Shown piece by piece: positions 36,604-57,197 of a stretch of 64,000 nt of DNA. The stretch comes from an uncultured bacterium (GTDB taxonomy: Bacteria; Bacillota; Clostridia; Lachnospirales; Lachnospiraceae): contig CANDBT010000003.1 of NCBI GenBank assembly GCA_947383005.1, positions 62,001 to 126,000 on the forward strand, given 5' to 3'. The position numbers were made by a program, and so were the translations under genes. The notes under the pieces were generated by a model that was not told where the DNA came from, did no database searches, and saw only the letters and a list, made by a program, of their open reading frames with translations. The first letter of the stretch is position 1; every line of letters starts with the position of its first letter.

Positions 36604-36604
36604 G

Positions 36605-37879: not shown

Positions 37880-38812
37880 TTACTCAAATGTCATGTCGAA
37901 GGTTTTTGGCAATTCCTCTCCTCTTTTTTTAAATATTTCCCGTAGGTATTCTATTTGTTTTTTTAAATAATCATGTTGATATTCTTTTACGGGTGTCATA
38001 TAGTTGTCCCCATAACTCAGCTTGCATAATAAGTCATAGTCTTCCAATACGGGGAGAACTGTATTTTCGAAAGGAATTTCAATAACTTTGTCAAAGCAGG
38101 TTCTGGGGATTCGATAATGGGGATCGGTATACAGCCAGGGCACGTTTGTTATGATGTTTGATTCTACATCCCAATACATGGCAGCTATCCGGTCGCCAAG
38201 AAAATATAGTTGTTCTTTTATAGGGCGCTGCCGGTCAAAACGGTAGCCGCTAAGTTGTTCGATTTCTTCGAGATATTCCCATTTGCTTTTGTCTGCCCAT
38301 TGTATGTCGTTTTCAGGAATATCCCAATTGAGGCACAAGGTGTGGGCTATATGACATAGATTTACTTGGATTTTTTCATCTGCATTATTTTGAGGAATAC
38401 GATCCAGGCAAAAAATATCGATCCCGCATTTATAAGGGCAGCCGTGTGATTGGTTTAAAAAGTCATGATCTAAACGGATCTTATCGGTATTGAACAAGCA
38501 GATGAGCGTGGGCTCATGCTCTATGATTTCCCATCCATCTGGTAATTCTGTTTTCATGAGACTGTGGAAGCGTTCATAATCTTTTCGTAGCATAGCCAGA
38601 TCCAGATCGTCATCCCAAGGAATGAAGCCATGGTGGCGTACGGCGCCTAATAAGGTACCAAACCATCCGTAATAATTTATTTGATAGTGTTTGCAGATTG
38701 CGTTTATTTTCTTTAACATATCTAATTGCACAGCCCATATGCGTTTTATTAATGGCTGTATATAATACCCTTCGCGTTCTTCTCCCTGAATAAATTCCAG
38801 TTTGATTTCCAT
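37880..38812 (-). CDS. LicD family phosphotransferase
   Basis: A 310-residue protein with the LicD core GTLLGAVRHHGFIPWDDD at residues 52-69, including the metal-binding acidic triplet, and a later CGIDIFCLDRIP segment. LicD family enzymes transfer phosphocholine or related phospho-groups to glycans such as teichoic acids. Being next to flagellins and near secreted proteins with choline-binding-type repeats, it could decorate the flagellar glycan or the wall. It is transcribed opposite to its neighbours. An AAGGAAGG-type ribosome site precedes the start on the coding strand. Confidence 0.87.
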   Translation of the reverse strand: MEIKLEFIQGEEREGYYIQPLIKRIWAVQLDMLKKINAICKHYQINYYGWFGTLLGAVRHHGFIPWDDDLDLAMLRKDYERFHSLMKTELPDGWEIIEHEPTLICLFNTDKIRLDHDFLNQSHGCPYKCGIDIFCLDRIPQNNADEKIQVNLCHIAHTLCLNWDIPENDIQWADKSKWEYLEEIEQLSGYRFDRQRPIKEQLYFLGDRIAAMYWDVESNIITNVPWLYTDPHYRIPRTCFDKVIEIPFENTVLPVLEDYDLLCKLSYGDNYMTPVKEYQHDYLKKQIEYLREIFKKRGEELPKTFDMTFE

Positions 38813-39105: not shown

Positions 39106-39114
39106 TTGGCAGAT

Positions 39115-39963
39115 ATGATCATACGTAACAATATACCTGGTATCAATGCGAATAGGAATAAAGGAATATCACAAGGAAATCTACAAAAGAATCTGGAAAA
39201 GCTTTCTTCTGGTTACCGGATTAACCGGGCAGGAGATGATGCGGCAGGATTGGCAATTTCGGAACTGATGAGAAACCAGATCCGCGGTTTGGATCAGGCT
39301 ATGAAAAATTGCAATGATGGTATAAGTTTTACCAATACCGGCGACGGCGCACTGGCAGAGGTACATTCCATGTTGTCCAGGCTGAAGACATTGGCGGTAC
39401 AGTCGGCGAATGGTACGTATAATACGGCAGCCAGGCTGAATCTGGATGAGGAAAGACAGCAGCTTTTGGATGAGATGGATCGGATTGGGGAGACTTCACA
39501 TTTTGCGGGTATCCAGTTGTTCGGTCATGATAATAGCAACAAGCAGCCAATTCCAGGCCAAGTGCCGAATGATGATGTGGTTTTCCAGGTTGGCCCTTCG
39601 GCTCAGGAAACTTTGGCGATGGAGCGCTATTATATAGGCAGTGCAAATATGAACCTTGATACAACCAGTTTTGCCACCTTGGCGGATGCTAATGATGCCG
39701 TGCCAAAGATAGAAGAGGCGATTGAAGCAATAGCAGATGTCCGGGCGACTTTTGGCGCTGCTAGTAACCGTCTTCAGCATGCGTATAATAATCTGTATGT
39801 TACTGATGAAAATATGAATGCTGCGGAAGCTCAGATAAGGGATACGAATATGGCGGAGGAGTTCACGGATTTCGCAAAGAATAATATTCTTCTTCAATCT
39901 TCCAATGCCATGGCAGCCCAGGCAAATTCGACAGTAGAGTTGGTTCTTAACCTCCTCCAGTAA
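39115..39963 (+). CDS. Flagellin (first copy)
   Basis: A 282-residue flagellin with full D0/D1 regions: NLEKLSSGYRINRAGDDAAG near the N-terminus and MAEEFTDFAKNNILLQSSNA plus a terminal VLNLLQ. Only a short central region (about 135-190) is present, so surface domains D2/D3 are missing, as in many Clostridia. I choose ATG 39115 with GGAAGGTGG nine bases upstream; a TTG at 39106 overlaps that site. It differs from the second flagellin in its centre and has less biased codon use, so it is probably the minor filament protein. Confidence 0.93.
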   Translation: MIIRNNIPGINANRNKGISQGNLQKNLEKLSSGYRINRAGDDAAGLAISELMRNQIRGLDQAMKNCNDGISFTNTGDGALAEVHSMLSRLKTLAVQSANGTYNTAARLNLDEERQQLLDEMDRIGETSHFAGIQLFGHDNSNKQPIPGQVPNDDVVFQVGPSAQETLAMERYYIGSANMNLDTTSFATLADANDAVPKIEEAIEAIADVRATFGAASNRLQHAYNNLYVTDENMNAAEAQIRDTNMAEEFTDFAKNNILLQSSNAMAAQANSTVELVLNLLQ

Positions 39964-40135: not shown

Positions 40136-40942
40136 ATGATTATTCAACACAACATAGCCGCTATCAATTCATACAGAAATTTGGGGATCAACCAAAGCGC
40201 ATTGAGCAAAAACCTTGAGAAATTGTCTTCTGGTTATCGGATTAACCGTGCAGGCGATGACGCTGCTGGTCTTGCTATTTCTGAGAGCATGAGATCCCAA
40301 ATCAATGGTTTGAATCAGGCTGCGAAGAATGCTAACGATGCTATTGGACTTATCCAGACAGCAGAAGGTGCTTTGACAGAGACTCATTCTATGTTACAGC
40401 GTCTGACTACTTTGGCGAGCCAGTCTGCAAATGGTACCTACAATAGTGTAGCTAGAGGAAATCTGCAGAAGGAAGTTAGCCGTTTGATTGAAGAGATTAA
40501 CCGTATTTCTAACGACACAGATTTCAATGGCGTTAAGCCGATCAGCGCTGGTACGATTACATTCCAGATTGGACCGACTGCTGGTGAGACGCTTGCTTTG
40601 ACTACTTGCGGTATGACAGCAGCTGATATTGGAATCGGTGGTATTAATGTTAGCACATTGTCAGGTGGTAATGCTGCTGTAACTACTATTAAGAAGGCTA
40701 TTAATAAAGTTTCTGATTATCGTGCTGACCTCGGTGCTGCTCAGAACAGATTGGAGCATACGGTTAACAACCTGAAGGTTACATCCGAGAATATCACTGC
40801 TGCTGAGAGCCGTATCCGTGATACTGATATGGCTGATGAGATTACTGCATTCACAAAGAATAATATTCTTCTGCAGGCATCTCAGTCCATGTTGGCACAG
40901 TCTAATTCTGTACCGCAGAGCATCTTGAGCCTGCTTCAGTAA
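40136..40942 (+). CDS. hag: Flagellin (major copy)
   Basis: A 268-residue flagellin starting MIIQHNIAAINSYRNLGINQ and ending QSNSVPQSILSLLQ, with complete D0 and D1 helices and only a minimal central loop (about 140-185). Its codon use is strongly biased to a small set (GCT, GGT, CGT, CTT), unlike neighbouring genes, as expected for a highly expressed filament protein. It has its own promoter, a structured leader and a perfect AGGAGG. Surface Ser/Thr residues in the central part (TISAGTITF, INVSTLSGGNAA regions) are candidates for O-glycosylation by the downstream enzymes. Confidence 0.96.
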   Translation: MIIQHNIAAINSYRNLGINQSALSKNLEKLSSGYRINRAGDDAAGLAISESMRSQINGLNQAAKNANDAIGLIQTAEGALTETHSMLQRLTTLASQSANGTYNSVARGNLQKEVSRLIEEINRISNDTDFNGVKPISAGTITFQIGPTAGETLALTTCGMTAADIGIGGINVSTLSGGNAAVTTIKKAINKVSDYRADLGAAQNRLEHTVNNLKVTSENITAAESRIRDTDMADEITAFTKNNILLQASQSMLAQSNSVPQSILSLLQ

Positions 40943-41122: not shown

Positions 41123-42445
41123 ATGAAAGCTGAAAAAAAGCCTCGCATTTCACAATGTATGATTGTAAAAAATGAAGAAAAGAATATCCGGAGAGCCTTA
41201 TCTTGGGGAAAGAATGTGATGTGGGAACAGATCGTGGTAGATACAGGTTCTACAGACCGGACTGTGGAGTTGGCAAAGAAGATGGGGGCAAAAGTGTTTT
41301 TTCTGGAATGGCCAGATGATTTTGCTGAAGCAAAAAACTATGCCATTGAAAAGGCAGGAGGGGATTGGATCATATTTTTGGATGCGGACGAATATATGGA
41401 AGAGAAGGATGCCAAAAAGCTTCCCGAAGTATTAGGGCAGCTTTCGAATAGAGGCTTTGACGGCATCACAGCTTTATTGCATAATCTTGATGATGCGGGG
41501 CAGATTTTTTCTTCCTGCAGCCATCTTCGTTTTTTTCGCAACGTCCCCGATATTCGTTATAGAAGACGGATTCATGAACAATTAGTATCTTTGTCAGGTA
41601 ACGAATTGCAGATTATGGATGGAACAGAGGTGTTTTCTATTTTCCATACCGGATATCAGAGCGGGGTTTCAGCAAAAAAGAGAAATAGTGGCAGGAATAA
41701 GCGGATGCTTCAAAGGGAGATAAAAGAACATCCGAAAGATTCGGAGCTTTTGGGATATATGGGAGACGAGTATTTTGATACTGGTGAGTTCCGTGAGGCG
41801 GAGCGGTGGTACTGTCTGGCAGTTGAATATATGCCTGCAGAGCTGAAGGAATATGATCAGAGGAGTGCGGTTACTTTTTCGCGGCTTTTGATGGTTCTTG
41901 CAGAAAAAGGAAATATTGCCTGGCAAGATATTTGCGATGTGTACCAGCGGGGGGTGCAGGCATTTCCCAAGGATGCAGATCTCGACTATATGGCAGGACG
42001 CTTTTTGGTGATGCACGGTTTGCCTGATAAGGCCGTCGAATTTTTAGAGATGGCTATTCGAAAGCTGGAGATTTATGGCTGTACCGGGAAGGCATTGTTT
42101 TTGGCAGGAAATTTGGGGGAGGCATATGATCTGTTGGCCAGATGCTGTTATGAGACGGAAGATCTGCAAAAGTGTATTTCCTATGCAGTGGCGCATTTGA
42201 AATATGCACATTATGAGATGAAACCATTATACTGGGTATTAAAGGCGCTGTTCCATGATGACGAAGAGGGAAAAAACCAGGAAAAAAATGAAGCAGTCAT
42301 GAATTTTCTTTCCCGGCTTTATGATTTTTTGTCTTTGAAGGATCGCCTGTTTGTACTCAGAACGGCACAAGAGGCAGGGTGCGACGGATTTGCCAGTTAT
42401 ATCATGGATCAGTATTTTACGCTGGACGAGCGGAATGTATTGTGA
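41123..42445 (+). CDS. GT2 glycosyltransferase with TPR-like C-terminal region
   Basis: A 440-residue protein. GT-A domain residues 8-230 contain CMIVKNEEKNIRRAL, VVDTGSTDRT (38-47) and the metal-binding DAD at 87-89. Beyond about 190 the sequence is a run of helical TPR-like repeats (for example LGYMGDEYFDTGEFREAERW and YMAGRFLVMHGLPDKAVEFL). First gene after the major flagellin and paralogous to 36605-37684, it is the best candidate for the enzyme that attaches the first sugar to flagellin Ser/Thr, by analogy with the GT2 next to fliC in Clostridioides difficile. ATG preceded by GACAGGGAGAT. Confidence 0.87.
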   Translation: MKAEKKPRISQCMIVKNEEKNIRRALSWGKNVMWEQIVVDTGSTDRTVELAKKMGAKVFFLEWPDDFAEAKNYAIEKAGGDWIIFLDADEYMEEKDAKKLPEVLGQLSNRGFDGITALLHNLDDAGQIFSSCSHLRFFRNVPDIRYRRRIHEQLVSLSGNELQIMDGTEVFSIFHTGYQSGVSAKKRNSGRNKRMLQREIKEHPKDSELLGYMGDEYFDTGEFREAERWYCLAVEYMPAELKEYDQRSAVTFSRLLMVLAEKGNIAWQDICDVYQRGVQAFPKDADLDYMAGRFLVMHGLPDKAVEFLEMAIRKLEIYGCTGKALFLAGNLGEAYDLLARCCYETEDLQKCISYAVAHLKYAHYEMKPLYWVLKALFHDDEEGKNQEKNEAVMNFLSRLYDFLSLKDRLFVLRTAQEAGCDGFASYIMDQYFTLDERNVL

Positions 42446-42472: not shown

Positions 42473-43633
42473 ATGAAGATTGTGTATATTGAATGGGGGG
42501 CTTTTGGAACTGAGGATATGCGAAAAGCATTTATTGCGGAAGGACATGTGCTTGCATTGTTTTTGTTTTCTGCCGCGTATGAAAGGCGCAGCCATGATCC
42601 GGAAACGGAGGAAAAATTGTGTGCTTTTCTGCATAAAGAGACACCTGATCTAGTTTTTTCTTTGAATTATTTTCCTGTAATATCCAAAATCTGCCAGCAG
42701 GAGGGGGTCCGCTATATCTCTTGGACATATGACTGCCCATGTTATCTGCTCTATTCTGCTACGATCATAAATCCTTGTAATGTTGCTTATATTTTTGATA
42801 AGGAATTATCCTTGGAATTTTACCGTGCCGGTATCCGGACAGTGCATTATATGCCGTTGGCAGCAGCCACAGAGCGATTGGATGCCCTTGTTCCCAATAC
42901 TGCCAAAAGAGAGCCTTTTCTCTATGATATTTCCTTTGTTGGTTCTTTATATATTGAAAAATATGATTATTTCTCAAAAATCGAGCCAGAATTGTCTGAT
43001 TATGCAAAGGGCTATTTGGATGCCCTTATAGGCGCTCAATTGAAGATTCAGGGTTACGATCTTGTGCAAGGTTTGCCGGAGCTTGTTATGGAAGAACTTT
43101 ATCAAGCTTGTCCAATTGAACCGGAACCGGATGGTATGGAATCCAGGGAATATTTTTATGAACAATATGTGATTAATCGCAGAATTACAGCAATCGAGCG
43201 AATAGATCTTTTGGAGACATGTGCGCGGTATCGGCTTTTGGATCTTTTTACGCGGGCGAAAGAGCTGACAATGCCAAATATCCGGAATCACGGAGAAGTA
43301 GAGTATTATGCGGAGATGCCGTTTGTATTTAAGCAAAGCAGGATTAATCTCAATGTTTCATTGCGTGGGATCAAGAGCGGCATTCCGTTGCGTGCTTATG
43401 ATATCATGGGAGCGGGAGGCTTTCTGCTCAGCAATTTTCAAGCGGATTTTTTGAATTATTTTATCCCGGGAGAGGATTTGGTGATTTATGAAAGTAAGGA
43501 AGATTTGCTGGCTAAAGTCATCTATTATCTTACCCACGAAGAAGAACGCAGGGCGATTGCCAGGAATGGCCATGACAAGGTAGCAGCGGGACATACCTAC
43601 AGGCATCGGGTGAGGGAAATGCTGGATTTCTGA
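42473..43633 (+). CDS. CgeB/DUF3880-like glycosyltransferase, array member 1
   Basis: A 386-residue GT-B-type protein. The N-terminal half (DUF3880-like) starts KIVYIEWGAFGTEDMRKAFI and includes VFSLNYFPVISKIC and INPCNVAYIFDKEL. The middle has DISFVGSLYIEK. The C-terminal half carries the GT1/CgeB signature (SGIPLRAYDIMGAGGFLLSN, then NGHDKVAAGHTYRHRVREML). It probably transfers one sugar to a growing glycan; donor unknown. It is the first of six close paralogs in tandem and ends just before the next member. ATG 28 bases after the GT2 gene; ribosome site GAGGATGAGAG. Confidence 0.85.
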   Translation: MKIVYIEWGAFGTEDMRKAFIAEGHVLALFLFSAAYERRSHDPETEEKLCAFLHKETPDLVFSLNYFPVISKICQQEGVRYISWTYDCPCYLLYSATIINPCNVAYIFDKELSLEFYRAGIRTVHYMPLAAATERLDALVPNTAKREPFLYDISFVGSLYIEKYDYFSKIEPELSDYAKGYLDALIGAQLKIQGYDLVQGLPELVMEELYQACPIEPEPDGMESREYFYEQYVINRRITAIERIDLLETCARYRLLDLFTRAKELTMPNIRNHGEVEYYAEMPFVFKQSRINLNVSLRGIKSGIPLRAYDIMGAGGFLLSNFQADFLNYFIPGEDLVIYESKEDLLAKVIYYLTHEEERRAIARNGHDKVAAGHTYRHRVREMLDF

Positions 43634-43652
43634 TATAGGAGGATAGTTTTCA

Positions 43653-44804
43653 ATGAAAGTTGTATTTATTGAATGGGAAAGCTTTGGAAAGGAAGATGTG
43701 AAAAAGGCATTTTTTGCGGAAGGGCATGATTTGGTTTTGTTTCCGGTTTCCGTTGATGAAGATTTGGACAAGCCATCAGCTCTTAAGGAAAGGCTGCCTT
43801 CCTTATTGCATCAGGAAGCGCCAGATGTTGTGTTTTCGATCAATTATTTTCCGGCAGTTTCCAGCATCTGTAATGAAGAAAGAGTACGGTATATTTCGTG
43901 GATTTATGATGCACCATATGTCCGTTTATATTCTCAGACGGTAATGAACCCCTGTAATATAGTATATGTTTTTGATAAAGAATTGTGTATGGAGTTTCGC
44001 AATGCCGGTGTAAATACGGTTCATTATCTCCCATTGGCAGTGGATACGGATCGTCTGGATACGTTGCTGGCATCCGCAGAACCATCTGGTTTTAAATATG
44101 ATATTTCTTTTGTTGGTTCATTTTATGTGGAAAAAAATGATTATTTTACTCAGATGGCAGATGCCCTGTCTGATTTTGCCAAGGGATATCTGGATGCGGT
44201 TATTTCTGCGCAGATAAAAATCCAGGGATATGATTTCGTGGAAGATGTGTTAGGCCCGGTTATTGATGATTTGTATAAAGCGTTTCCCTTGGATCCGGAT
44301 CCTAATGGTATGGAGAGCAAAGAATATCTTTATGCCCAGTATGTGATCAACCGCCGTATCACGGCATTAGAGCGGATTGATCTTTTAAATGCTATTGCAA
44401 AAAGGCATAGTGTTGATATTTTTACCTATATAAAAGATTTTACGATGCCAAATGTCTGTAACCATGGCCGGGTTGATTACTTTAGTGAGATGCCAAAGGT
44501 ATTCAGGCAAAGCCGAATTGATTTGAATATATCTCGCCGAGGTATTAAAAGCGGCATTCCGCTCAGGGCTTTTGACATTATGGGAAGCGGAGGATTTCTG
44601 CTCAGCAATTTTCAGGCGGAGCTTTTGGATTTTTTTATCCCGGATGAGGATTTTGTTTATTATGAGAGTAAAGAAGATATGCTGCAAAAGATTGATTATT
44701 ATCTTCGTCATGAAGCAGAACGGCAAGAAATTGCCAGGAATGGGCATGATAAGGTAGCGGAAAGGCATACTTACAGACATCGGATAAGGGAGATTTTTTC
44801 GTGA
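43653..44804 (+). CDS. CgeB/DUF3880-like glycosyltransferase, array member 2
   Basis: A 383-residue paralog. The start KVVFIEWESFGKEDVKKAFF and the C-terminal block SGIPLRAFDIMGSGGFLLSN match member 1 closely. The N-terminal region lacks the HDPETE-type segment, giving a slightly shorter protein. In the GGFLLSN motif region Ala is replaced by Ser (MGSGG). AGGAGGATAG lies upstream of the ATG. Its TGA overlaps the GTG of member 3, so the two are translationally coupled. Distinct acceptor or donor use among members is likely but cannot be read from sequence. Confidence 0.85.
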   Translation: MKVVFIEWESFGKEDVKKAFFAEGHDLVLFPVSVDEDLDKPSALKERLPSLLHQEAPDVVFSINYFPAVSSICNEERVRYISWIYDAPYVRLYSQTVMNPCNIVYVFDKELCMEFRNAGVNTVHYLPLAVDTDRLDTLLASAEPSGFKYDISFVGSFYVEKNDYFTQMADALSDFAKGYLDAVISAQIKIQGYDFVEDVLGPVIDDLYKAFPLDPDPNGMESKEYLYAQYVINRRITALERIDLLNAIAKRHSVDIFTYIKDFTMPNVCNHGRVDYFSEMPKVFRQSRIDLNISRRGIKSGIPLRAFDIMGSGGFLLSNFQAELLDFFIPDEDFVYYESKEDMLQKIDYYLRHEAERQEIARNGHDKVAERHTYRHRIREIFS

Positions 44805-45970
44805 AGATATTGTTCATTGAATGGGATAGCTATGGATATCAAGATATAAAAGAGGCATTTATTGAGGAAGGACATCAGTTAGTGTGTTTTCCCTTTAAAG
44901 TTTTTGGGCATCAGGGAGAAGAACTTTTGCGTGACCCGGAGACAGAAAGCAAGCTGCATGCGGCATTGCGGCGGGAAATACCGGAGTTAGTGTTTTCGGT
45001 GGATTATTTTCCGGTGATTTCCGGAGTGTGCCAAAAAGAAGGCATCCGATATATTTCTTTTAACTATGACTGCCCTCACATTTTGTTGTGTTCTAATACG
45101 ATTATTAATCCTTGTAATGTGATTTATGTTTTTGATAAACAGCTTTATTTAGAATATCATCATGCTGGTATTTCTACTGTCCGTTATCTGCCGCTGGCGG
45201 TTAATACAAAACGTTTGGATGCCATAAAGCCGGCATTGACGGATACCATGGATTCAGGATATGATGTGTCTTTTATCGGTTCGCTATATTTGGAAAAGGG
45301 AAATTATTTTGATCAGATCGAGCCGCTTCTTCCAGAGTATACGAGAGGATATCTAAAGGCATTGATTATGATGCAGTTGAAGATATCTGGTTATGATCTT
45401 GTGCAGGAGATGATTCCAGCGATCCTGGATGATTTATGTAGGGTTTATCCGGTAAAACTTATGCGGGATAGTGCGCAGCCAGCCAGTTTTTTTTATGAAC
45501 AGCATGTCATTAACCGCAGGATTACCGCTATAGAGCGTATTGATTTGTTGGAAACAGCGGCGAAAAAGTATTCTGTGGATCTTTTTACGCATATAAAGGA
45601 CTTTCCCTTGTCTGGTGTACGTGTCCATGGCGGAGTTGATTACTTTAGTGAAATGCCTTTGATTTTTAAGCAAAGCAAAATTAATTTGAATATTACTTTA
45701 CGCAGTATCAGAAGCGGGGTTCCGTTGCGTGCCTTTGATATTATGGGGGCGGGAGGTTTTTTGCTCACGAATTATCAAGCCGACATTTTGGATTTGTTTG
45801 TGCCAGATGAAGATTTTGTATATTATGAGAGTAAAGAAGATTTTTTGCGGAAAATAGGTTATTATCTGTCGCATGAAGAGGAACGAAAGGCGATTGCACA
45901 AAGCGGGCATGACAAGGTCGCCGCAAGGCATACGTACAGACATCGGGTGCGGGAGATGTTGGATTTTTGA
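44801..45970 (+). CDS. CgeB/DUF3880-like glycosyltransferase, array member 3
   Basis: A 389-residue paralog starting with GTG at 44801 inside the stop of member 2. Landmarks: KILFIEWDSYGYQDIKEAFI, VFSVDYFPVISGVCQKEG, DVSFIGSLYLEKGNYF, SGVPLRAFDIMGAGGFLLTN and the common end HTYRHRVREMLDF. The last 114 bases are about 94 percent identical to the end of member 4, much more than the sequence just before it, pointing to recombination between neighbours. The enzyme is expected in the cytoplasm. Confidence 0.85.
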   Translation: MKILFIEWDSYGYQDIKEAFIEEGHQLVCFPFKVFGHQGEELLRDPETESKLHAALRREIPELVFSVDYFPVISGVCQKEGIRYISFNYDCPHILLCSNTIINPCNVIYVFDKQLYLEYHHAGISTVRYLPLAVNTKRLDAIKPALTDTMDSGYDVSFIGSLYLEKGNYFDQIEPLLPEYTRGYLKALIMMQLKISGYDLVQEMIPAILDDLCRVYPVKLMRDSAQPASFFYEQHVINRRITAIERIDLLETAAKKYSVDLFTHIKDFPLSGVRVHGGVDYFSEMPLIFKQSKINLNITLRSIRSGVPLRAFDIMGAGGFLLTNYQADILDLFVPDEDFVYYESKEDFLRKIGYYLSHEEERKAIAQSGHDKVAARHTYRHRVREMLDF

Positions 45971-45982
45971 AGGTGGATGTTT

Positions 45983-47155
45983 ATGAAGATACTGTTTATT
46001 GATTGGATGTACTATGGAAAAGATGATATAAAAAGCGCAATGCTTGAAGAGGGACATGAAATAATTTCTTTTCCATTTGAAGTTTCAACATCTCTGGTAT
46101 GGGAACAACTGATTCATAATCCAGAAACAGAAAGAAGGCTTTGTACCGCATTACATGAAGAGATACCAGAAATAGTTTTTTCTGTGAATTATTTTCCCGT
46201 GATTGCTAGAGTGTGCCAAAAGGAAGACATTCGGTATGTTTCTTGGAGCTATGATAGCTATTATATCCTGCTTTATTCAGATACAATTCGTTATCCGTGT
46301 AATGCAATCTATGTTTTTGATAAAGAGATGTATAGGGAATATCATGAAGCAGGGATTTTTACCGTGCATTATATGCCATTGGCAGTTAATGCAAAACGAT
46401 TGGAGCGCATAGATAAAGACAGGAATCTATTAGCGGAGTTCCCGTATAAAGTTTCTTTTGTTGGTTCATTTTATCTGGAAAAAGGAAGTTTCTTTAAGCA
46501 AATTGAGGCAGCGCTTCCAGAGCGTTCCCGGGGATATTTAAAGGCATTGATCGCTATACAGTTAAAGATACAAGGATATGACGTGATTCAGGAAATGCTT
46601 TCCCCTATCTTAGATGATTTTTGTAAAGCTTATCCGTTGAAGCCACTATCATCAGGAATGGAGCCAAAAAGTTTTTTTTATGAGCATCATGTTATTAAAC
46701 CTTGGATTACAACAATAGAACGGATGGACTTATTGGAAGCTATAGCTGAAAAATATACCGTAGATTTGTTTTCGCATACAGAAGATTTTGCTGTACCTGG
46801 ATTGAATAACCATGGCCCTGTAGATTACTTCCAGGAGATGCCTTTGGTTTTTAAGCAAAGCAAGATTAATCTGAATATAACCATGCGTGGCATAAAAAGT
46901 GGAATCCCACTTCGTGCTTTTGATATAATGGGGGCAGGCGGTTTTTTACTCAGCAATTATCAGGCGGGTTTTCTGGATTATTTTGTGCCGAATGAGGATT
47001 TTGTTTTCTATGAAAATAAAAAAGATCTGTTAGCAAAGATTGGTTATTATCTGTCACATGAAGAGGAACGGAAAGCGATTGCACAAAGCGGACATGACAA
47101 GGTCGCCGCAGAGCATACGTACAGACATCGGGTGCGGGAAATGTTGGATTTTTGA
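45983..47155 (+). CDS. CgeB/DUF3880-like glycosyltransferase, array member 4
   Basis: A 390-residue paralog: KILFIDWMYYGKDDIKSAML at the start, KVSFVGSFYLEKGSFFKQIE in the middle and SGIPLRAFDIMGAGGFLLSN near the end. I take ATG 45983 with AGGTGG at 45971-45976; an in-frame ATG at 45977 overlaps that site. One conserved patch differs: where others read VINRRITAIERIDLLE, this reads VIKPWITTIERMDLLE, which may mark changed acceptor specificity. Base composition is more AT-rich than the flagellar genes. Confidence 0.85.
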   Translation: MKILFIDWMYYGKDDIKSAMLEEGHEIISFPFEVSTSLVWEQLIHNPETERRLCTALHEEIPEIVFSVNYFPVIARVCQKEDIRYVSWSYDSYYILLYSDTIRYPCNAIYVFDKEMYREYHEAGIFTVHYMPLAVNAKRLERIDKDRNLLAEFPYKVSFVGSFYLEKGSFFKQIEAALPERSRGYLKALIAIQLKIQGYDVIQEMLSPILDDFCKAYPLKPLSSGMEPKSFFYEHHVIKPWITTIERMDLLEAIAEKYTVDLFSHTEDFAVPGLNNHGPVDYFQEMPLVFKQSKINLNITMRGIKSGIPLRAFDIMGAGGFLLSNYQAGFLDYFVPNEDFVFYENKKDLLAKIGYYLSHEEERKAIAQSGHDKVAAEHTYRHRVREMLDF

Positions 47156-47176
47156 ATGTAGGAAGGAAAGGGGAAC

Positions 47177-48739
47177 ATGAGAGAGATTAGCGTAATCATC
47201 TTTTGCTATAATGCAGGTGCTTATATTGATAGATGCATGGCATCCGTCACGGCACAGATAGAATCAGGCAGTCTGGAAATTATTTGTGTGGATGACGCTT
47301 CTTCTGATGACACATGGGAACGTTTACAGAGATGGGAGCAGCGTTTCTCGGAAAATGTGCTGCTGATTTCCCTGGAAACGGAAACAGGACAGGAAGCGGC
47401 CAGGAAAATTGGATTGTCTTATGCTTCTGCGGATTGTACTGCGTTCATAAAAGCAGAGGATTGTTTGGAACCGGGACAATTTGAAGAATTATACAGAGTT
47501 GTTCGAAATCAGGGTAACAACGGAAACCAACAGCAGAATCTGCGGATTGTCCAGTTCTATTCGGGGACAGATTCTTTTAATTTCTTTACGGATCAGTTGA
47601 CAAAAGAATTGCATAGACGAGGACACGAAGTTTTTGTCTGCGATCTAGGGGATGTTTCGGGAAAAACAGAACATTCTTATGACCATTTGAATCGTTTTCT
47701 GTTAAAAAAGATAGATGCAGTGATCTGTTTTGACGGGATAGGGACCAGGGAAGAGCAGTTTATTCAGCAGTGGGATAAGCATCAGGCAGTAGTGCTGGAT
47801 ATTTTGATGGATCCGCCCTTTCGTTTTCATCCCACATTGGAGAAACATCCCCAAAATTATGTTTTGTTTTGCTGTGATCAGGAGCATGTCAGCTATGTAA
47901 CAAAATATTTCCCCCAGGAAGTCCCCAATGTAATTTTTATGCCCCACGTGGGGGCTGTGAGTGAGAAAGATGAGGTAGCTGTTCCTTATAAAGAGAGAAA
48001 ATATGATATTCTTTTTTCGGCAAGTTACTATCATCCAATGTCTCAGATGGAGAAAATAAAATGCCTGTTTCCGGATCAGCCGGACATGTGGAAATTTTAT
48101 CAGCAAATGTTTGAAAATCTAGTAGAGGATAGTTCGCTGACCATTGAGAGGGCAGTTCTTCATACATTACAGCAATTCCATTTATCTGCATCTGATGAAA
48201 TGCTGAAGATGCTTTTGAACCGTTCGCTATATGTGGATTGGGCAATCCGTATGTATCATCGGGGACGGGTTGTGGAAGCTTTGGCGGAATCAGGGTTGGA
48301 ACTTTATCTTTTGGGGCCAGGATGGGAAGACCATCCCTCGGCGGGATATCCGAATGTACATCGTTTGGGCAGCCAGGTACCATATAAACAGACTCTCGCC
48401 TTTATGGCGGATGCCAGGATCAATCTAAATGTGATGCCTTGGTTTAAATCAGGGACACATGACCGGATTTTTAATACGTTGCTGCAGCATTCGCTTCCCC
48501 TTACTGATCCAAGCAGTTGGATTACCGAGCATTTTACCGATGGCGTAGACATTGCTTTGTATGACCTGAATCATTTGGAGCAGATTCCGGATATAGCAAG
48601 GCAATTGTTAGCGGATCCTATGCGGGCGGAAATGATTATCCAGAGAGGGTATAAGAAGGTCAGCCAAAATCTGACATGGTCTAACTGTGCGGATTGGCTT
48701 TTAGAGGTGGCAAAACAGGTCAGGGGAAAGAAAATATGA
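47177..48739 (+). CDS. Hybrid protein: truncated GT2 domain fused to a CgeB-like glycosyltransferase
   Basis: A 520-residue protein. Residues 1-110 are the first half of a GT2 domain (ISVIIFCYNAGAYIDRCMAS, ICVDDASSDDTWERL), but the DxD position reads KAED (92-95) and the acceptor half is missing. From about 122 onward it is a GT-B protein of DUF3880/CgeB style (LRIVQFYSGTDSFNFFTDQL, YDILFSASYYHPMSQ, ARINLNVMPWFKSGTHDRIF) more distant from the array members. The GT2 part is probably non-catalytic. It interrupts the array between members 4 and 5; its TGA overlaps the next ATG (ATGA). Confidence 0.8.
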   Translation: MREISVIIFCYNAGAYIDRCMASVTAQIESGSLEIICVDDASSDDTWERLQRWEQRFSENVLLISLETETGQEAARKIGLSYASADCTAFIKAEDCLEPGQFEELYRVVRNQGNNGNQQQNLRIVQFYSGTDSFNFFTDQLTKELHRRGHEVFVCDLGDVSGKTEHSYDHLNRFLLKKIDAVICFDGIGTREEQFIQQWDKHQAVVLDILMDPPFRFHPTLEKHPQNYVLFCCDQEHVSYVTKYFPQEVPNVIFMPHVGAVSEKDEVAVPYKERKYDILFSASYYHPMSQMEKIKCLFPDQPDMWKFYQQMFENLVEDSSLTIERAVLHTLQQFHLSASDEMLKMLLNRSLYVDWAIRMYHRGRVVEALAESGLELYLLGPGWEDHPSAGYPNVHRLGSQVPYKQTLAFMADARINLNVMPWFKSGTHDRIFNTLLQHSLPLTDPSSWITEHFTDGVDIALYDLNHLEQIPDIARQLLADPMRAEMIIQRGYKKVSQNLTWSNCADWLLEVAKQVRGKKI

Positions 48740-49923
48740 AGATCCTATTTATCCAATGGGGCGTGTTCGGGACAATGGATATGGAAGAAGCATTTATGGC
48801 AGAGGGACATATGGTTGTCCGGTTTCCTTTTTCTAAGGATCAGGATGTAGTCTATAATTTTGAGGTAGAAAAAGAACTGACAAGCGTCCTGCATAAAGAG
48901 GTGCCGGATGTGGTGTTTTCGTTTGATTTTTTTCCCGTGATTTCCGCGGTTTGTGAAAAAGAAGATATCCGATATATTTCTTGGGTTTTTGATGATCCCT
49001 GGGTTTTTTTATATTCAGATATGGCTGCCAATCCATGTAACTGCATTTATGTTTTTGATCAAAAATTATGTAAAGATTTTCATGAAAAAGGTATCTTTAC
49101 CGTTCATTATATGCCTTTGGCGGTCAACACGGGGCGTCTGGATGCGATGAACCAGAAGATAAAGACAGGATATGCGTATGATGTCACATTTGTTGGATCG
49201 CTTTATGTGGAGCAACTTAACTTTTTTGATCGGATGTATGCTGTATTGCCAGAGTATTCCCAAGGATATATCCATGCTCTTATGGCAATTCAGATGCAGG
49301 TTCAGGGTTGTGATCTTATTGAGAATGCGTTATCACCAGTTATTGATGATCTTTGTAAAGCCTGTCCGATAGGGATAGAACCAGGGAATTCGGCAACAAG
49401 AGAATATATGTATGCCCGTTATGTGATTGACCGGAGGATTACAGCAATTGAGCGTATTGATTTGCTGGATGCGGTTGCCAAAGAGCATAGGGTGGATTTG
49501 TTTACACATTTTAAGGGATTTTCGATGCAAAATGTCTGCAACCATGGCATAGTGGGATATTATGATGAGGCGCCAAAGGTGTTCAAAAAGAGTAAAATTA
49601 ATTTGAACATTACTTTACGTAGTATCAAAAATGGGATTCCGCTGCGGGCGTTTGATATTATGGGCGCCGAAGGATTTCTTCTTAGCAATTTTCAGGCCGG
49701 ATTTTGGGATTTGTTTGTACCCGGAGAGGACTTTGTTTATTATGAGAACAAAGAGGATTTGGTGCGGAAGGTCGGTTACTACCTGAAACACGAAGATGAG
49801 AGAAAAGCGATTGCCAGGAATGGGCATGAGAAAGTCGCTGCAAGGCATACATACATACAGACACCGTGTAAGAGAGATGTTTGGTTAGAAATGAGGTATG
49901 GTAATGAGAATAGTATTTATTGA
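48736..49923 (+). CDS. CgeB/DUF3880-like glycosyltransferase, array member 5 (frameshifted C-terminus)
   Basis: A 395-residue paralog starting KILFIQWGVFGTMDMEEAFM and holding SFKKSKINLNITLRSIKNG-like and PLRAFDIMGAEGFLLSNFQA blocks. The end differs from all relatives. After AARHTY the frame reads IQTPCKRDVW... instead of RHRVREM, because the DNA has three ATAC units (49847-49858). With one unit fewer, it would read HTYRHRVREMFG and stop at 49887, ahead of the next ribosome site. As it stands the longer tail runs into the start of member 6. The catalytic core is intact. MGAEGG replaces MGAGG. Confidence 0.83.
   Translation: MKILFIQWGVFGTMDMEEAFMAEGHMVVRFPFSKDQDVVYNFEVEKELTSVLHKEVPDVVFSFDFFPVISAVCEKEDIRYISWVFDDPWVFLYSDMAANPCNCIYVFDQKLCKDFHEKGIFTVHYMPLAVNTGRLDAMNQKIKTGYAYDVTFVGSLYVEQLNFFDRMYAVLPEYSQGYIHALMAIQMQVQGCDLIENALSPVIDDLCKACPIGIEPGNSATREYMYARYVIDRRITAIERIDLLDAVAKEHRVDLFTHFKGFSMQNVCNHGIVGYYDEAPKVFKKSKINLNITLRSIKNGIPLRAFDIMGAEGFLLSNFQAGFWDLFVPGEDFVYYENKEDLVRKVGYYLKHEDERKAIARNGHEKVAARHTYIQTPCKRDVWLEMRYGNENSIY
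49847..49858 (+). repeat. ATAC tetranucleotide repeat (three units)
   Basis: Three adjacent ATAC units inside the 3' end of array member 5. Loss of one unit would restore the family's usual C-terminus and stop codon. Tetranucleotide repeats can slip during replication, although three units is short. Confidence 0.8.
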
Positions 49924-51064
49924 ATGGGGGACCTTTGGGAAAGATGATGTAAAAATGGCATTTGCGGCGGAGGGGCATAAACTGGTGACCTTTCCCTTTT
50001 CGGCTACATATGAAACAATCAGCCATGATCCGGAAGCAGAAAAAAGATTGCATATTGTGTTGCGCAAAGAAGTGCCGGATATGGTGTTCTCTTTGAATTA
50101 TCTGCCGCTGGTGTCCAGAGTGTGCCAGGAAGAGAACATAAGGTACGTTTCGTGGCTTTTTGACAGTCCTTGTTTTCAGCTTTATTCGGTTACGGCTGCA
50201 AACCCATGTAATGTGATTTATGTATTTGATAAGGAGGAATATTTGGCGTTTCGCAAGGCGGGGATTAATACCGTGCATTATATGCCATTAGCAGTGGATG
50301 TAGACAGACTGAAACCCGTTCTTGACGTTTTGCCAGAAAACAGCTTTGATTATGATGTATCTTTTGTAGGATCGTTATATATGGAGAAATTAAATTATTT
50401 CCCGGTAGTGATGTCCCGTCTTCCGGAATATGCCAAAGGATATATTGACGCATTGATTGAGGCGCAGATGAAAATCCAGGGGTATAATTTTATCCAGGAT
50501 TTGTTGGAACCAGTGATTGATGATTTGTACGAGGCATATCCTGTGGACCCAGAGCCGGACGGCACGGAACCTCGGGAGTTTTTCTATGCGGAATATGTGA
50601 TCAACCGCAGGATTACTACAATGGAAAGGATTGGGCTGTTGATGGCGGCGGCTTCAGCTTATAAAGTTGATCTTTTTACTTATAAAAAAGATTTTTCTAT
50701 ACCCAATGTATATAATCATGGGCCGATTGATTATGTCCGTGAGATGCCATTTGTTTTTCGGAAAAGCAAGATTAATCTGAACATTTCCGGCCGTTTGATT
50801 AAAAGCGGTGTCCCGCTTCGTGCTTTTGACGTGATGGGAGCCCGCGGGTTTTTGCTCAGTAATTATCAGGCGGATTTTTTGGATTTGTTTGTGCCAGGGG
50901 AAGATTTTGCGTATTATGAAAGCAAAGAAGATTTGTTGGATAAGATCGGCTATTATCTGTCTCATGAGGAAGAGCGGAAGGCTATTGCAAAGAATGGATA
51001 TGAGAAAGTGAAGGCAAAGCATACCTACAGGCATCGGGTACGTGAGATGCTCTCAATATTCTAA
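49904..51064 (+). CDS. CgeB/DUF3880-like glycosyltransferase, array member 6
   Basis: A 386-residue paralog: RIVFIEWGTFGKDDVKMAFA, VFSLNYLPLVSRVCQEEN, DVSFVGSLYMEKLNYF, and SGVPLRAFDVMGARGFLLSN with Arg where others have Gly. The ATG at 49904 has GAGG at 49893-49896; an in-frame ATG at 49898 is too close. It overlaps the frameshifted tail of member 5 by 20 bases. The end matches the family (HTYRHRVREMLSIF). It closes the array; a 142-base direct repeat follows. Confidence 0.85.
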   Translation: MRIVFIEWGTFGKDDVKMAFAAEGHKLVTFPFSATYETISHDPEAEKRLHIVLRKEVPDMVFSLNYLPLVSRVCQEENIRYVSWLFDSPCFQLYSVTAANPCNVIYVFDKEEYLAFRKAGINTVHYMPLAVDVDRLKPVLDVLPENSFDYDVSFVGSLYMEKLNYFPVVMSRLPEYAKGYIDALIEAQMKIQGYNFIQDLLEPVIDDLYEAYPVDPEPDGTEPREFFYAEYVINRRITTMERIGLLMAAASAYKVDLFTYKKDFSIPNVYNHGPIDYVREMPFVFRKSKINLNISGRLIKSGVPLRAFDVMGARGFLLSNYQADFLDLFVPGEDFAYYESKEDLLDKIGYYLSHEEERKAIAKNGYEKVKAKHTYRHRVREMLSIF

Positions 51065-51093: not shown

Positions 51094-51386
51094 GCCATGG
51101 TGAATGCATGCTCGCATGCAATGAACCATGGATATCGTGCAGCCAAGCCAGATAGAGCCAAGTAGGCCGATAGGCCGGATTGCGAATACTGGCGGCGATT
51201 GCGGGGGCACGAAGTGCGGAGCAATCGGTTTTCATGCCATGGTGAATGCATGCTCGCATGCAATGAACCATGGATATCATGCAGCCAAGCCAGATAGAGC
51301 CAAGTAGGCCGATAGGCCGGATTGCAAATACTGGCGGCGATTGCGGGAGCACGAAGTGCGGAGCAATCGGTTTTCATGCCATGGTG
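51094..51386. repeat. 142-base direct repeat, two full copies with internal hairpins
   Basis: Copies at 51094-51235 and 51236-51377 differ at about three positions, and a third copy begins (GCCATGGTG) at 51378. Each contains a nested palindrome (CCATGGT...TGCATGC-TC-GCATGCA...ACCATGG) and a stem CGATTGC/GCAATCG. The period is not a multiple of three and no ribosome site is present, so it is non-coding. It fills most of the 377-base gap before 51442. Confidence 0.9.
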
Positions 51387-51441: not shown

Positions 51442-52479
51442 ATGGAAGAAGAAAAAAAGTTAAAGGTTATTTTAATTGGTATTGGGGAGGATTGTGTCAG
51501 TATTGTGGATCAGGCGATTCATGATCTGAAAGAAAAAAACAGGATAGAAGCAGTCATTTTTGACCGTGACACGCGATATGATGAACTTTCAGATAAGTCA
51601 TACCCACAATTCATGATAGAAGATCTTCCAGGATTGACCTTTGATAAACTGCTGATTTGTTCCAGATACTGTATTATGGAAGAGAGTGTGAAGCTTTTTT
51701 GCGAAGAGTTAGGTCTTTCTCGTTCTCAATGTGGCAGTTATATCACACACAAAATTGGTCCTCATAAGATCGCTTGGGATAAAGTAACGATAATGGAAGA
51801 TCTGGTAGAACAGCTTTGTTTTTCTGATTCGCTAAATGACTTAGAGCGTTTTTTCTATGGCGGGAAGCACAGGCAGCTTAGCAAATGGCTCCATTACTTT
51901 GAGATTTATGACCGTCATTTTGCAAAATACAGAAATAAGGCTCCGGTCGTAATGGAAATAGGCGTATTTCGAGGCGGTTCTTTGCAGATGTGGAAAGAAT
52001 ATTTTGGAAAGGATGCACAGATTATCGGCGTAGATATTGATGAAAGGACGAAAGCTTTTGAGGAAGATCAGATCCATATCGAGATCGGATCGCAGGCAGA
52101 CCGGGATTTTTTAAAGCAATTAAAGTCGAAATATCCTAAAATCGATATTTTGATTGATGATGGCGGACATACAATGGAGCAGCAGATCACAACTTTTGAA
52201 GAGATGTTTTGCCATATTTCAGCAGACGGAGTTTACTTGTGTGAGGATCTGCACACCAGTTACTGGAAAGAATACGGAGGAGGATATAAATGTCCGGATT
52301 CCTATATTGAGTATAGTAAAAATTTTATCGATTATCTCCATGCTTGGTTCAGCACTGATCCTGCATTGCAGGAGAACCGGTATTCCAGAAGTATGCAAAG
52401 CCTTCACTATTATGATAGCGTGTTAGTGATTGAAAAAAGAAAAACAGGGCCGGCGCTGGATCTAATGTTGGGGTTGTAA
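51442..52479 (+). CDS. SAM-dependent methyltransferase with N-terminal extra domain
   Basis: A 345-residue protein. The C-terminal class I methyltransferase domain (about 145-330) has motif I VVMEIGVFRGGSL (169-181), IIGVDID and DILIDDGGHTMEQQ followed by VYLCEDLHTSYW. This resembles sugar O-methyltransferases of the MycE/cephalosporin hydroxylase-like group, which need a metal held by the DDGGH residues. Residues 1-130 form a separate alpha/beta region (LKVILIGIGEDCVSIVDQAI) of unknown role. It likely methylates a hydroxyl of the glycan built by the surrounding enzymes. AAAAGGAGAAAT precedes the ATG. Confidence 0.8.
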   Translation: MEEEKKLKVILIGIGEDCVSIVDQAIHDLKEKNRIEAVIFDRDTRYDELSDKSYPQFMIEDLPGLTFDKLLICSRYCIMEESVKLFCEELGLSRSQCGSYITHKIGPHKIAWDKVTIMEDLVEQLCFSDSLNDLERFFYGGKHRQLSKWLHYFEIYDRHFAKYRNKAPVVMEIGVFRGGSLQMWKEYFGKDAQIIGVDIDERTKAFEEDQIHIEIGSQADRDFLKQLKSKYPKIDILIDDGGHTMEQQITTFEEMFCHISADGVYLCEDLHTSYWKEYGGGYKCPDSYIEYSKNFIDYLHAWFSTDPALQENRYSRSMQSLHYYDSVLVIEKRKTGPALDLMLGL

Positions 52480-52519
52480 TGCGGACGGCAGCCTGATGTA
52501 CGGCAAGAAAGGGAAGAAG

Positions 52520-53605
52520 ATGAAGACAGCGAAGAAAGTCAGTGTAATTGTTCCGTGTTATAATGCAGCAAAGTATCTGGATCAATGTATAGGACAGCTT
52601 CTGAGCCAGACTATTGGTATGGACAATATGGAAATCATTCTGGTGGACGATGCGTCGACGGATAATGGAGAGACAAAAAAGCTGATCCAGAGATATGAGC
52701 ATGGTTTTCCGGAAACGATCCTGGCTGTTTTTTTAGATGAAAACAGGCGGCAGGGAGGGGCACGGAATGTAGGTGTAGCTTATGCAGAAGGAGAGTATCT
52801 GACCTTTTGTGACGCGGACGACTGGCTGTTGGAGGAGACGTTGGAACATGCATATGATGCCGCAAAAGAGTACGATGCGGATGTCGTCGCGTTTTCCAGA
52901 AAAAATGTTTATGAGCATGGAATTCGTGTACGATTGGAGAAGGGCGCAAGAGATGAACTATTTGTGTTGGAGAAGGAAGAAGACCGAAAAAAATTCCTTC
53001 TAAATGTAAAGGAAGAAGGATATAGTTCCCAGAATAAATTGTTTAAACTGTCCCTGATACGAGAAAATCATATCGCATTTGCAGAGCATTTGATCATGGA
53101 AGAGCCCTCTTTTGTATTGCCAGTGCGAATGTATGTGAAAAGATATTATTATTTGGATGAGCGGCTATATATTTGTTTTTCTTCGCCAGGGAGTACGGTG
53201 CGTGATAATGCCGCTTGGGAAAAAAGGAAGTGGGATAATCTGCAGGTATGGACAGCGTTGCTGGAAGAACTGGCATGCAGGGGGGTCTTACAAGTATACT
53301 GGCAGGAAGTGGAATATCTGTTTTTTACCTTAGGATTAGGATGGACTCTTGGTATGTTGTTTCAAAGAGGCTGTATTTTGACGAAGGATGAATGGAAGGC
53401 ATTGGTAGGAATTGCCAACAGGCTAATTCCCGCAGTCAGAGAAAATCCATATGTAATTCATGAAAGCCATCCTTTTAACCAGGCATGGAATGATGTGTTG
53501 CTGGCAGTTCTGGATATGGAATTTACAGATGCAGATGTACAGGCGGCTAATGATGCGATGACAGAAAGTGCACGGGCGTTTTCCGCATGTCCGGTATTTA
53601 TGTGA
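52520..53605 (+). CDS. GT2 family glycosyltransferase
   Basis: A 361-residue protein. The GT-A domain (about 5-220) contains VSVIVPCYNAAKYLDQCIGQ, the LVDDASTDNG loop and the metal-binding DADDW at 98-102; the remainder is helical and less conserved. Expected to use a nucleotide sugar to extend a surface glycan. ATG at 52520 preceded by AAAGGGAAGAAG; an in-frame start at 52496 is possible but adds an unconserved basic stretch. The gene ends 43 bases before the next start, with no terminator between. Confidence 0.85.
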   Translation: MKTAKKVSVIVPCYNAAKYLDQCIGQLLSQTIGMDNMEIILVDDASTDNGETKKLIQRYEHGFPETILAVFLDENRRQGGARNVGVAYAEGEYLTFCDADDWLLEETLEHAYDAAKEYDADVVAFSRKNVYEHGIRVRLEKGARDELFVLEKEEDRKKFLLNVKEEGYSSQNKLFKLSLIRENHIAFAEHLIMEEPSFVLPVRMYVKRYYYLDERLYICFSSPGSTVRDNAAWEKRKWDNLQVWTALLEELACRGVLQVYWQEVEYLFFTLGLGWTLGMLFQRGCILTKDEWKALVGIANRLIPAVRENPYVIHESHPFNQAWNDVLLAVLDMEFTDADVQAANDAMTESARAFSACPVFM

Positions 53606-53648
53606 TGAAGATGGAAATAGAGATATCAGCAAAACGCCAGGAGGTAGG

Positions 53649-54746
53649 ATGTTGGATGAAAAAAAGATAACGTTTATCACATGTGTCAATGACGAAGAAG
53701 AATATGCAGAATGCCGATATTATTTAAATCGGCTTTCTGTCCCTGAAGGTTACATGATGGATCTTATCAGTATACGGGAAGCGCCATCTATGGCGGCTGG
53801 TTATAATGCCGGGATGAAAAGTTCAGATGCGAGATATAAAATATACCTGCATCAGGATGTGTTTATCAGAAATCCTGCGTTTATTACAGATTTGCTTGCC
53901 GTGTTTGCATGTGATGAACAGATCGGGATAATTGGGGTGATTGGGAAAAGGAATCAAGGATTTTATCCTATTGAAAAGGTAATGATGTGGGATACCGGCA
54001 AGGTGGTCGATAATGAAAGAATTTGGCACTTTGACTATCCATGGAAAAAAATGACTTTTGCGGAAGCGTTAGCGGCAGACGGTCTGATGCTGGCAACACG
54101 ATACGATATTCCATGGAGGGAGGATCTTTTTACTGGCTGGGATTTTTATGATATCTCACAGTGTATGGAGTTTCGGAAAGCAGGTTTTAAAGTGGCAATA
54201 CCATGGCAGGAGACAGAATGGTGCTATCATAATACGTCCTATGTGAAGCTTACACAGTATTACGCTTACTATAAACGTTTTCTCCAGGAATATGCGGGCA
54301 TATTAGGGGATGATATTCCCGCAAAGACAGATCGGTATACGTATGAAAAAGAAGAGAATTATGCGCAAGCGATAGAGGAATTGCGGCAGGGGGTCGCAGG
54401 GCTTTTTGGCATGGGGGATCGGAAAAATCTCCGGAGCCTGCTTTTGGATTCCGACTTGAAAAAGTCGATATATTTAAGGGAGTATGCTTCTATAGTGCAG
54501 ATTGACTGGCAAGAGGAACAGACTCATTCGAAAAAATGCTTTTGGGAGCAGGGAATGTCTGCAGATCAACTGGTAGAAAAGCTGCGGAAGTTGAAATATA
54601 TGTTAAAGCGGATTGAATATACCGATGATCATTCACAGAAGGAACAGCTAAAACAAGAATATTCCCGTTATGCCGTGGCTGATGTATGCAGCCGTTATGT
54701 GCTCGATAAGGATAGGGTTTTAAGAGAAATAACGGATATTTTGTAA
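53649..54746 (+). CDS. Glycosyltransferase of the StrF-like (Glyco_tranf_2_5) type
   Basis: A 365-residue protein. The N-terminal domain (1-205) starts KITFITCVNDEEEYAECRYY, with the segment KIYLHQDVFIRNPAFITDLL, then DGLMLATRYDIPWRED and GWDFYDISQCMEF. This is the pattern of GT-A enzymes related to streptomycin-cluster StrF. The C-terminal part is helical. The same N-terminal domain recurs in the larger protein at 57262. Start at ATG 53649 with AGGAGGTAGG upstream. Acceptor and donor unknown. Confidence 0.75.
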   Translation: MLDEKKITFITCVNDEEEYAECRYYLNRLSVPEGYMMDLISIREAPSMAAGYNAGMKSSDARYKIYLHQDVFIRNPAFITDLLAVFACDEQIGIIGVIGKRNQGFYPIEKVMMWDTGKVVDNERIWHFDYPWKKMTFAEALAADGLMLATRYDIPWREDLFTGWDFYDISQCMEFRKAGFKVAIPWQETEWCYHNTSYVKLTQYYAYYKRFLQEYAGILGDDIPAKTDRYTYEKEENYAQAIEELRQGVAGLFGMGDRKNLRSLLLDSDLKKSIYLREYASIVQIDWQEEQTHSKKCFWEQGMSADQLVEKLRKLKYMLKRIEYTDDHSQKEQLKQEYSRYAVADVCSRYVLDKDRVLREITDIL

Positions 54747-54856
54747 AAAGTGCAATATTTTTCCCAAAGTAGGGGGATGGATTTTTTTGTTGTAAAGCTG
54801 ATCGAATATGGGTATTTTCGCGAGCGGAAAAGATACACATGGACAAGGAGGATGGA

Positions 54857-57138: not shown

Positions 57139-57163
57139 AAATCTATCCTCCGTTTTTATTTCC

Positions 57164-57192: not shown

Positions 57193-57197
57193 TGGAT

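Follow-up and report, generated by a model that had tools for sequence, protein, structure and literature searches.

The window analyzed here is a 64,000-nucleotide stretch from the genome of an uncultured Lachnospiraceae bacterium (GenBank assembly GCA_947383005.1, contig CANDBT010000003.1, positions 62,001 to 126,000 of the forward strand). It carries an array of six paralogous genes on the + strand at 42473–51064, each encoding a putative glycosyltransferase with the domains DUF3880 (PF12996) and Glyco_trans_1_2 (PF13524), and two flagellin genes lie upstream. Both domains exceed the Pfam gathering score in all six genes. The proteins are 386, 383, 389, 392, 395, and 388 amino acids (aa) long in gene order and share 54–66 per cent pairwise identity. 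Array gene 1 used as a query against its own genome returned six matches, all in the array; since the weakest had an E-value of 1.5e-137, chance is excluded for this family. The array and the genes just before it are listed below, with orthologues from a distant Lachnospiraceae genome, L049. TPR-GT2 denotes a family 2 glycosyltransferase (GT2) with tetratricopeptide repeats (TPR).

39106–39963, +: flagellin 1, 285 aa (PF00669/PF00700)
40136–40942, +: flagellin 2, 268 aa (NCBIfam flagellin models, E down to 3e-85 but below their cut-offs)
41123–42445, +: TPR-GT2, candidate priming flagellin glycosyltransferase (PF00535 and TPR)
42473–43633, +: array gene 1 (DUF3880 and Glyco_trans_1_2; orthologue L049:10001)
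43653–44804, +: array gene 2 (same domains; orthologue L049:11177)
44801–45970, +: array gene 3 (same domains; GTG start; orthologue L049:12325; 3' tract in common with gene 4)
45977–47155, +: array gene 4 (same domains; orthologue L049:13510)
47177–48739, +: GT2 and Glyco_trans_1_2 fusion, 520 aa, splitting the array between genes 4 and 5; not an array member
48736–49923, +: array gene 5 (altered C-terminus; frame open from 48694, ATG at 48736; orthologue L049:16910)
49898–51064, +: array gene 6 (same domains as genes 1–4; without an L049 counterpart)

The array is real, and an earlier sequence-only reading of this DNA, which had described a run of six paralogs, is partly confirmed. The shared strand, the size range (383–395 aa), the short or overlapping junctions, and the position after flagellin and a TPR-GT2 are all borne out, but the fusion gene at 47177–48739 interrupts the run between copies 4 and 5. 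Intergenic gaps from TPR-GT2 to array gene 6 range from -26 to +27 bases, and 377 bases separate gene 6 from the next gene. The motifs quoted in that reading turn out to be consensus forms: counted by eye in the alignment of the six proteins, EWxxFGxxD is exact in three of six, SFVGSLYxEK in two, and PLRAFDIMGAGGFLLSN in one. Seventeen residues are invariant over sixty aligned family members, and all are retained in every array gene. Array genes 3 and 6 received no name from the NCBIfam models, and gene 1 had a single weak match (13 bits). Enzymes of this domain composition presumably adopt a GT-B fold. The label CgeB for the family is that of the earlier reading.

In the fusion gene, the PF00535 match covers positions 1–114 of the 168-position profile and is accompanied by PF13524; the Pfam scan found no match to PF12996. 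Its product is 75 per cent identical to that of genome L038 and 77 per cent identical over 409 aa to that of L049. The L049 version is 758 aa long (L049:14697–16973), and the window has about 700 bases fewer there; the L049 protein matches the PF00535 profile from 1 to 163, and the L038 version is short, as in the window. We do not count L038 as independent of L049: their copies are nearly identical, L038 FlhA is only 43 per cent identical to that of the window, and the contig may be misbinned.

Three CATA units occur where the tail of array gene 5 is altered; at that point the other five genes continue into RHR. These units (about 49840–49923) accompany both the odd tail and the overlap with gene 6, and could reflect slippage or an assembly error.

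History and distribution of the array genes

Array genes 1–5 each pair with a single gene of L049; the gene order is the same in both, and support is 100/99–100. Gene 6 has no counterpart in L049 and joins gene 1 with weak support (81/33). L049 has a LicD-like gene in the place taken in the window by gene 6 and a methyltransferase gene; it is one of two LicD-related stretches in the L049 locus. A tree with the six window copies as one clade is rejected (approximately unbiased test, p-AU 1.1e-61), which rules out a recent, species-specific tandem expansion. The ratio of nonsynonymous to synonymous divergence (dN/dS) against L049 is 0.045–0.104 for genes 1–5, a purifying pattern, with values that are rough because dS is saturated. 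Old, separately conserved copies favor fixed roles over a shuffling reservoir. Judged from these sequence comparisons, array genes 1–5 keep separate, long-standing identities.

We also scanned for stretches in which a copy resembles a neighboring copy more closely than its L049 orthologue. One clear conversion tract of about 120 nucleotides (nt) was found in genes 3 and 4, at the 3' end of each, where 108 of 120 nt are identical, compared with 175 of 240 just upstream. Within it, genes 3 and 4 resemble each other more than they do their orthologues in L049, so the two neighbors have exchanged sequence since the split from L049. Weaker, short matches in the same scan involve genes 2 and 6, 3 and 5, 4 and 1, and another stretch of 4 and 3. 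The copies differ from one another most, relative to their orthologues, at residues 161–320 (ratio 2.4–2.6 versus 1.6–1.7 elsewhere, compared by sequence and not structure). Among genes 1–4, ten of 383 alignment columns fit a simple rule for candidate specificity positions, dispersed over the protein.

The relationship to L049 conflicts with the species tree. The RpoB tree places the window genome with its own genus (support 100/99) and L049 elsewhere, with L040; RpoB identity is 91–93 per cent to five genus mates and 79 per cent to L049. Flagellin 1, in contrast, is 85 per cent identical to L049 and 62–65 per cent identical to eight genus mates, and flagellin 2 is 95 per cent identical to L049. 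For TPR-GT2 (41123), identity is 71–73 per cent to L049 and L038 and at most 57 per cent to genus mates. Both the flagellin-1 and the TPR-GT2 trees join the window with L049 and reject a genus clade (p-AU 1.6e-75 with eight mates; p-AU 1.4e-49 with four mates represented by their nearest copies). Five genes of the same locus outside this cassette, in the L049 flank, are 46–77 per cent identical to the window, compared with 71–95 per cent for cassette genes. Because flagellin 1 and TPR-GT2 show the same conflicting tree, the flagellin and transferase genes resemble a single cassette that has been exchanged. On the simplest reading, flagellins and array passed between lineages: they probably moved together between this gut-bacterial lineage and a distant Lachnospiraceae lineage, in a direction and by a mechanism that we infer. 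Synonymous sites are saturated, so the exchange with the L049 lineage is not a recent one, and there were likely intermediates.

To place the array in its wider family we surveyed 397 Lachnospiraceae genomes, counting the array family as present at E ≤ 1e-40. Flagellin was found in 109 of 111 genomes with the family and 103 of 286 without it (Fisher P = 1.2e-34, a guide only, because related genomes are not independent). Among the best 77 loci of 125 relatives, thirty-eight have a flagellin-like open reading frame and sixty-five a TPR-GT2-like one; flagellin is present at twenty-five of the forty-one that are at least 20 kb long. Counting copies with a score above 450 in the same best 77 of 125, seventy-two loci have one, L096 has two, L051 has three (on a short contig), and L038, L040, and L049 have five each. 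Whole-genome counts at E ≤ 1e-40 are five for L049, six for L040, and eight for L038, which may be a mixed genome.

Every third genome on the list of family carriers (36 of 111) was examined for runs. Fifteen have one full-length copy, seven have two, and fourteen have three to seven (one genome has seven). The longest head-to-tail run is one in twenty-five carriers, two in nine, and three in two; none of the thirty-six has a run of four. The sequence-only reading had called the window's run unusual. Its length is indeed at the long end, but with runs of two or three copies in eleven of thirty-six carriers it is no new kind of thing: runs are a habit of the family, and four in a row plus two lies at the long end of that habit. 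In a class-wide draw the family was found in eleven of 391 genomes, ten of which (including the window's) are Lachnospiraceae.

The surrounding island

The array is part of a larger block of glycosyltransferase and sugar genes. Its other members in the window are listed here.

36503–37684, +: TPR-GT2a (PF00535 E 5e-17, scanned from 36581; next to flagellin 1 in six genus mates, with 68–72 per cent identity)
37880–38812, -: LicD family gene (PF04991 E 3e-29)
51442–52479, +: methyltransferase-like gene, Methyltransf_24 (PF13578 E 4e-7)
52496–53605, +: GT2 glycosyltransferase (PF00535 E 3e-32; 76 per cent identical to L049)
53568–54746, +: Glyco_tranf_2_5 glycosyltransferase (PF13712)
54839–56113, +: FkbM-type methyltransferase (PF05050, TIGR01444)
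56137–57276, -: GT8 glycosyltransferase (PF01501; 65 per cent homologue near the L049 locus)
57262–59235, +: Glyco_tranf_2_5 and GT2 protein (PF13712 and PF00535)
59265–59672, +: FdtA-like sugar isomerase (PF05523 E 5e-52)
59672–60769, +: DegT-family sugar aminotransferase (PF01041 E 1e-116; no NCBIfam model above cut-off)
60797–61867, +: carbamoyl-phosphate-synthase-like protein (NF009402 80 bits, under the cut-off of 218)
61864–62760, +: NAD-dependent sugar epimerase/dehydratase (PF01370)
62757–63377, +: HAD-type hydrolase (PF13419)

Judged by its FdtA neighbor, the DegT-family aminotransferase may have an FdtB-type role. Homologues of TPR-GT2a in genus mates begin with MKINLVMIV, which corresponds to about 36605 in the window. 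A PilZ protein is encoded upstream of TPR-GT2a, and further genes there are, by likeness, presumably flagellar. TPR-GT2 (41123) shows some likeness to the SunS peptide glycosyltransferase (76 bits, cut-off 350).

We compared the locus across the genus, using one genome per species (twenty-three mates and the window genome, twenty-four in all). Flagellin is present in ten of the twenty-three mates (11/24 with the window genome). The array family was found in none of the twenty-three at E ≤ 1e-30; of the twenty-four genomes only that of the window has it. Flagellin stretches were examined for nine of the ten flagellin-bearing mates; eight (G003, G004, G005, G012, G013, G018, G019, and G021) have a clear flagellin 1 homologue, and the ninth (G017) is diverged. 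TPR-GT2a adjoins flagellin 1, as in the window, in six of those eight; the G013 contig stops at this position, and G012 has other genes there, including a chaperonin. Seven mates show the right side of the locus, and five of these have one or two TPR-GT2s followed by chemotaxis-type genes. G003 and G021 have no TPR-GT2 on that side and carry other genes instead (RuvA in G021). None of the seven has a glycosylation island at the locus, and the G005 contig is too short to judge. No more than about 4 kb beyond the end of the window, genes for CheB, CheR, and CheA that resemble those in the mates reappear. Given this likeness on both sides, the island appears as an insertion of glycosyltransferase and sugar genes beside flagellin in an otherwise common, conserved flagellar locus. 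Besides its disagreement with the species tree, the island has an odd guanine-cytosine content: 47.6 per cent at 1–36500, 41.0 per cent in the array, and 40.2 per cent after it.

A Kyte-Doolittle scan of the twenty-three genes from 36581 to 63377 found no membrane segment in twenty-two; GT8 has one at its N-terminus. The scan ends at 63377, and the last island genes lie beyond it. This profile argues for cytosolic sugar transfer straight onto protein. In profile and membrane scans none of the twenty-three genes resembled a membrane flippase, polymerase, or priming transferase, and no scanned window protein matched the Maf family. A promoter scan gave thirty-nine sites (38.0 expected), and terminator-like sites numbered nineteen (10.9 expected), most of them intragenic by their coordinates.

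Two tandem copies (142 nt, 98 per cent) of a genome-dispersed repeat with thirty-two genome matches of varied length lie at 51094–51377, where the window and L049 differ. At the end of the window, a gene weakly resembling fucosyltransferase family 11 (just under the Pfam cut-off) is seemingly split over two frames, at 63398–63724 and L156:154–732. At the far end of the island, L156:759–1238 encodes a short N-terminal piece resembling phosphonopyruvate decarboxylase (TIGR03297, 162 bits, cut-off 312.5), adjoining another piece with a weak transposase-family match.

Proposed function and competing explanations

Geobacillus (PMC5109656), Clostridium (PMC13317340), and enterobacteria (PMC4875605) are known to have flagellar glycosylation islands. 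We class the locus described here as one of this kind, and the six-copy DUF3880 array is its unusual part. As far as the available parts of these papers describe them, the Geobacillus islands also place a variable block of glycosyltransferase and sugar genes at the flagellin locus (region 0.9–30.4 kb; PMC5109656), and those of Geobacillus and Clostridium likewise show lower guanine-cytosine content and signs of horizontal acquisition (PMC5109656, PMC13317340). GT2 domains with TPR repeats, as in the window's TPR-GT2, are put forward as possible flagellin glycosyltransferases in Clostridium (PMC13317340). In the accessible text on Geobacillus there are at most five distinct glycosyltransferases, of families GT2 and GT4, whereas the window has six paralogues of one DUF3880 family (PMC5109656). 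The locus of Clostridioides difficile type B also encodes glycosyltransferases directly after flagellin, where, according to the portion available, they act in sequence to add N-acetylglucosamine, two rhamnoses, and a further group; ATP-grasp/carbamoyl-phosphate-synthetase-like and FdtB-like genes are nearby, as in the window (PMC5207246). That portion describes three glycosyltransferases, each with PF00535, and mentions no DUF3880 array, in contrast to the window (PMC5207246). The DUF3880 literature is sparse, with none about flagellin as judged by title or abstract start, and the titles retrieved on Lachnospiraceae flagellin glycosylation mention no such array. One apparent link between CgeB and flagellin proved, when checked, to be a sequencing-center acronym.

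We consider it likely that the locus is a flagellar glycosylation island served by sequential soluble transferases, with a flagellin/TPR-GT2/genes 1–5 cassette exchanged sideways. TPR-GT2 (41123) would probably place the first sugar on serine or threonine of both flagellins in the cytosol. The six soluble DUF3880/Glyco_trans_1_2 enzymes and the GT2 fusion would then extend the glycan one sugar at a time before export, each array enzyme having a set acceptor or donor of its own, and the methyltransferase-like enzymes and an FdtA-linked amino-deoxysugar pathway may modify the chain further. A cassette of both flagellins, TPR-GT2, and genes 1–5 would have come by a lateral route to be common to this and a distant Lachnospiraceae lineage, with gene 6 as its variable end. 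Context supports a flagellin-glycan role well (the co-occurrence with flagellin, the adjoining TPR-GT2s, and the lack of a flippase or polymerase among the genes scanned), so that the interpretation in the sequence-only reading gains partial support; flagellin as substrate, like the enzymes' activity and order of action, is predicted from that context. Its proposal that each linkage has its own enzyme is consistent with the one-to-one orthologues of copies 1–5 in L049 and with their low dN/dS, and such a role for each enzyme is putative.

Several results weigh against this interpretation. At sixteen of the forty-one loci that span 20 kb or more, no flagellin is seen. Seven of twenty-one genomes with a close flagellin-2 match have the array family (111/397 overall), so a coupling between the window's flagellin type and the family is not supported. 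A search of the PDB found no relative at a meaningful E-value (best 0.16). As for the exchange, two further island-type genes in L049 are just 55 and 65 per cent identical to their window counterparts, and FlhA is neutral (84 per cent to L049, 84–86 per cent to genus mates). The dS between window and L049 is 1.5–3.0 for genes 1–5 (saturated), 0.88 for flagellin 2, and not measurable for flagellin 1. In the flagellin-1 tree few forks are well supported, and the tree carries a long-branch warning.

The saturated dS also leaves room for an explanation with no lateral exchange, in which the island is ancestral in a wider group and was lost, with a change of flagellin allele, in the sampled genus mates. 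L069, the RpoB sister of the genus, has two array-family genes, one of them at its flagellin locus, where relatives of the GT2 fusion also lie. The window alleles nevertheless cluster with L049 and not with L069, and the gap in identity between the cassette and the five genes outside it is not what such a history suggests; we think this account improbable. About equally unlikely, in our view, is that the six enzymes are largely redundant and retained for dosage. They have identical domains and the same seventeen invariant residues, but the copies are 34–46 per cent different, and genes 1–5 predate the split from L049 without overall convergence.

The sequence-only reading had also offered the array as a recombination reservoir that alters the flagellar antigen. 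The 3' tract shared by genes 3 and 4 and the presence of copy 6 in one of two lineages are in its favor. However, that tract is confined to a conserved tail, all six copies are full length (though with an altered tail in copy 5), and genes 1–5 retain separate one-to-one orthologues. Apart from the genes 3/4 tract and some weaker, short matches the copies neither homogenize nor shuffle overall, which leaves the reservoir unsupported at this time scale and, we judge, very unlikely. That reading had named one-to-one conservation with fixed copy number as an outcome that would speak against it, and only part of this was found: five copies are one-to-one with L049, but the sixth is not, and copy number varies between genomes. 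Nor do we give much weight to the array making a capsule or wall polysaccharide with incidental adjacency to flagellin. LicD, GT8, GT2, and sugar-nucleotide genes of the sort generally known from surface polymer loci are present, yet the twenty-three genes tested include no membrane flippase, polymerase, or priming transferase, flagellin co-occurs with the family in 109 of 111 genomes, and TPR-GT2s adjoin flagellin in most examined genus mates that lack the island. This, too, seems highly improbable.

Sequential glycosylation of flagellin would give a predicted job to the DUF3880 family, which has almost no literature. The flagellins of commensal Lachnospiraceae are immune targets, and the locus further suggests that these bacteria would change flagellin and sugar coat together. 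The difference in copy number between related arrays (five in L049, six in the window) makes the glycan prediction checkable by mass. In a bolder version, which we put forward as a doubtful possibility, the array would work as an assembly line that needs no polymerase: the count of DUF3880 enzymes would fix how many residues flagellin receives, and flagellin alleles with matched transferases would move between species as a self-contained surface-coat cassette.

Large proteins with a SIR2-like domain (PF13289) were also observed near the flagellin loci of L049 (3840–6320) and L040 (L161:8478–11024).

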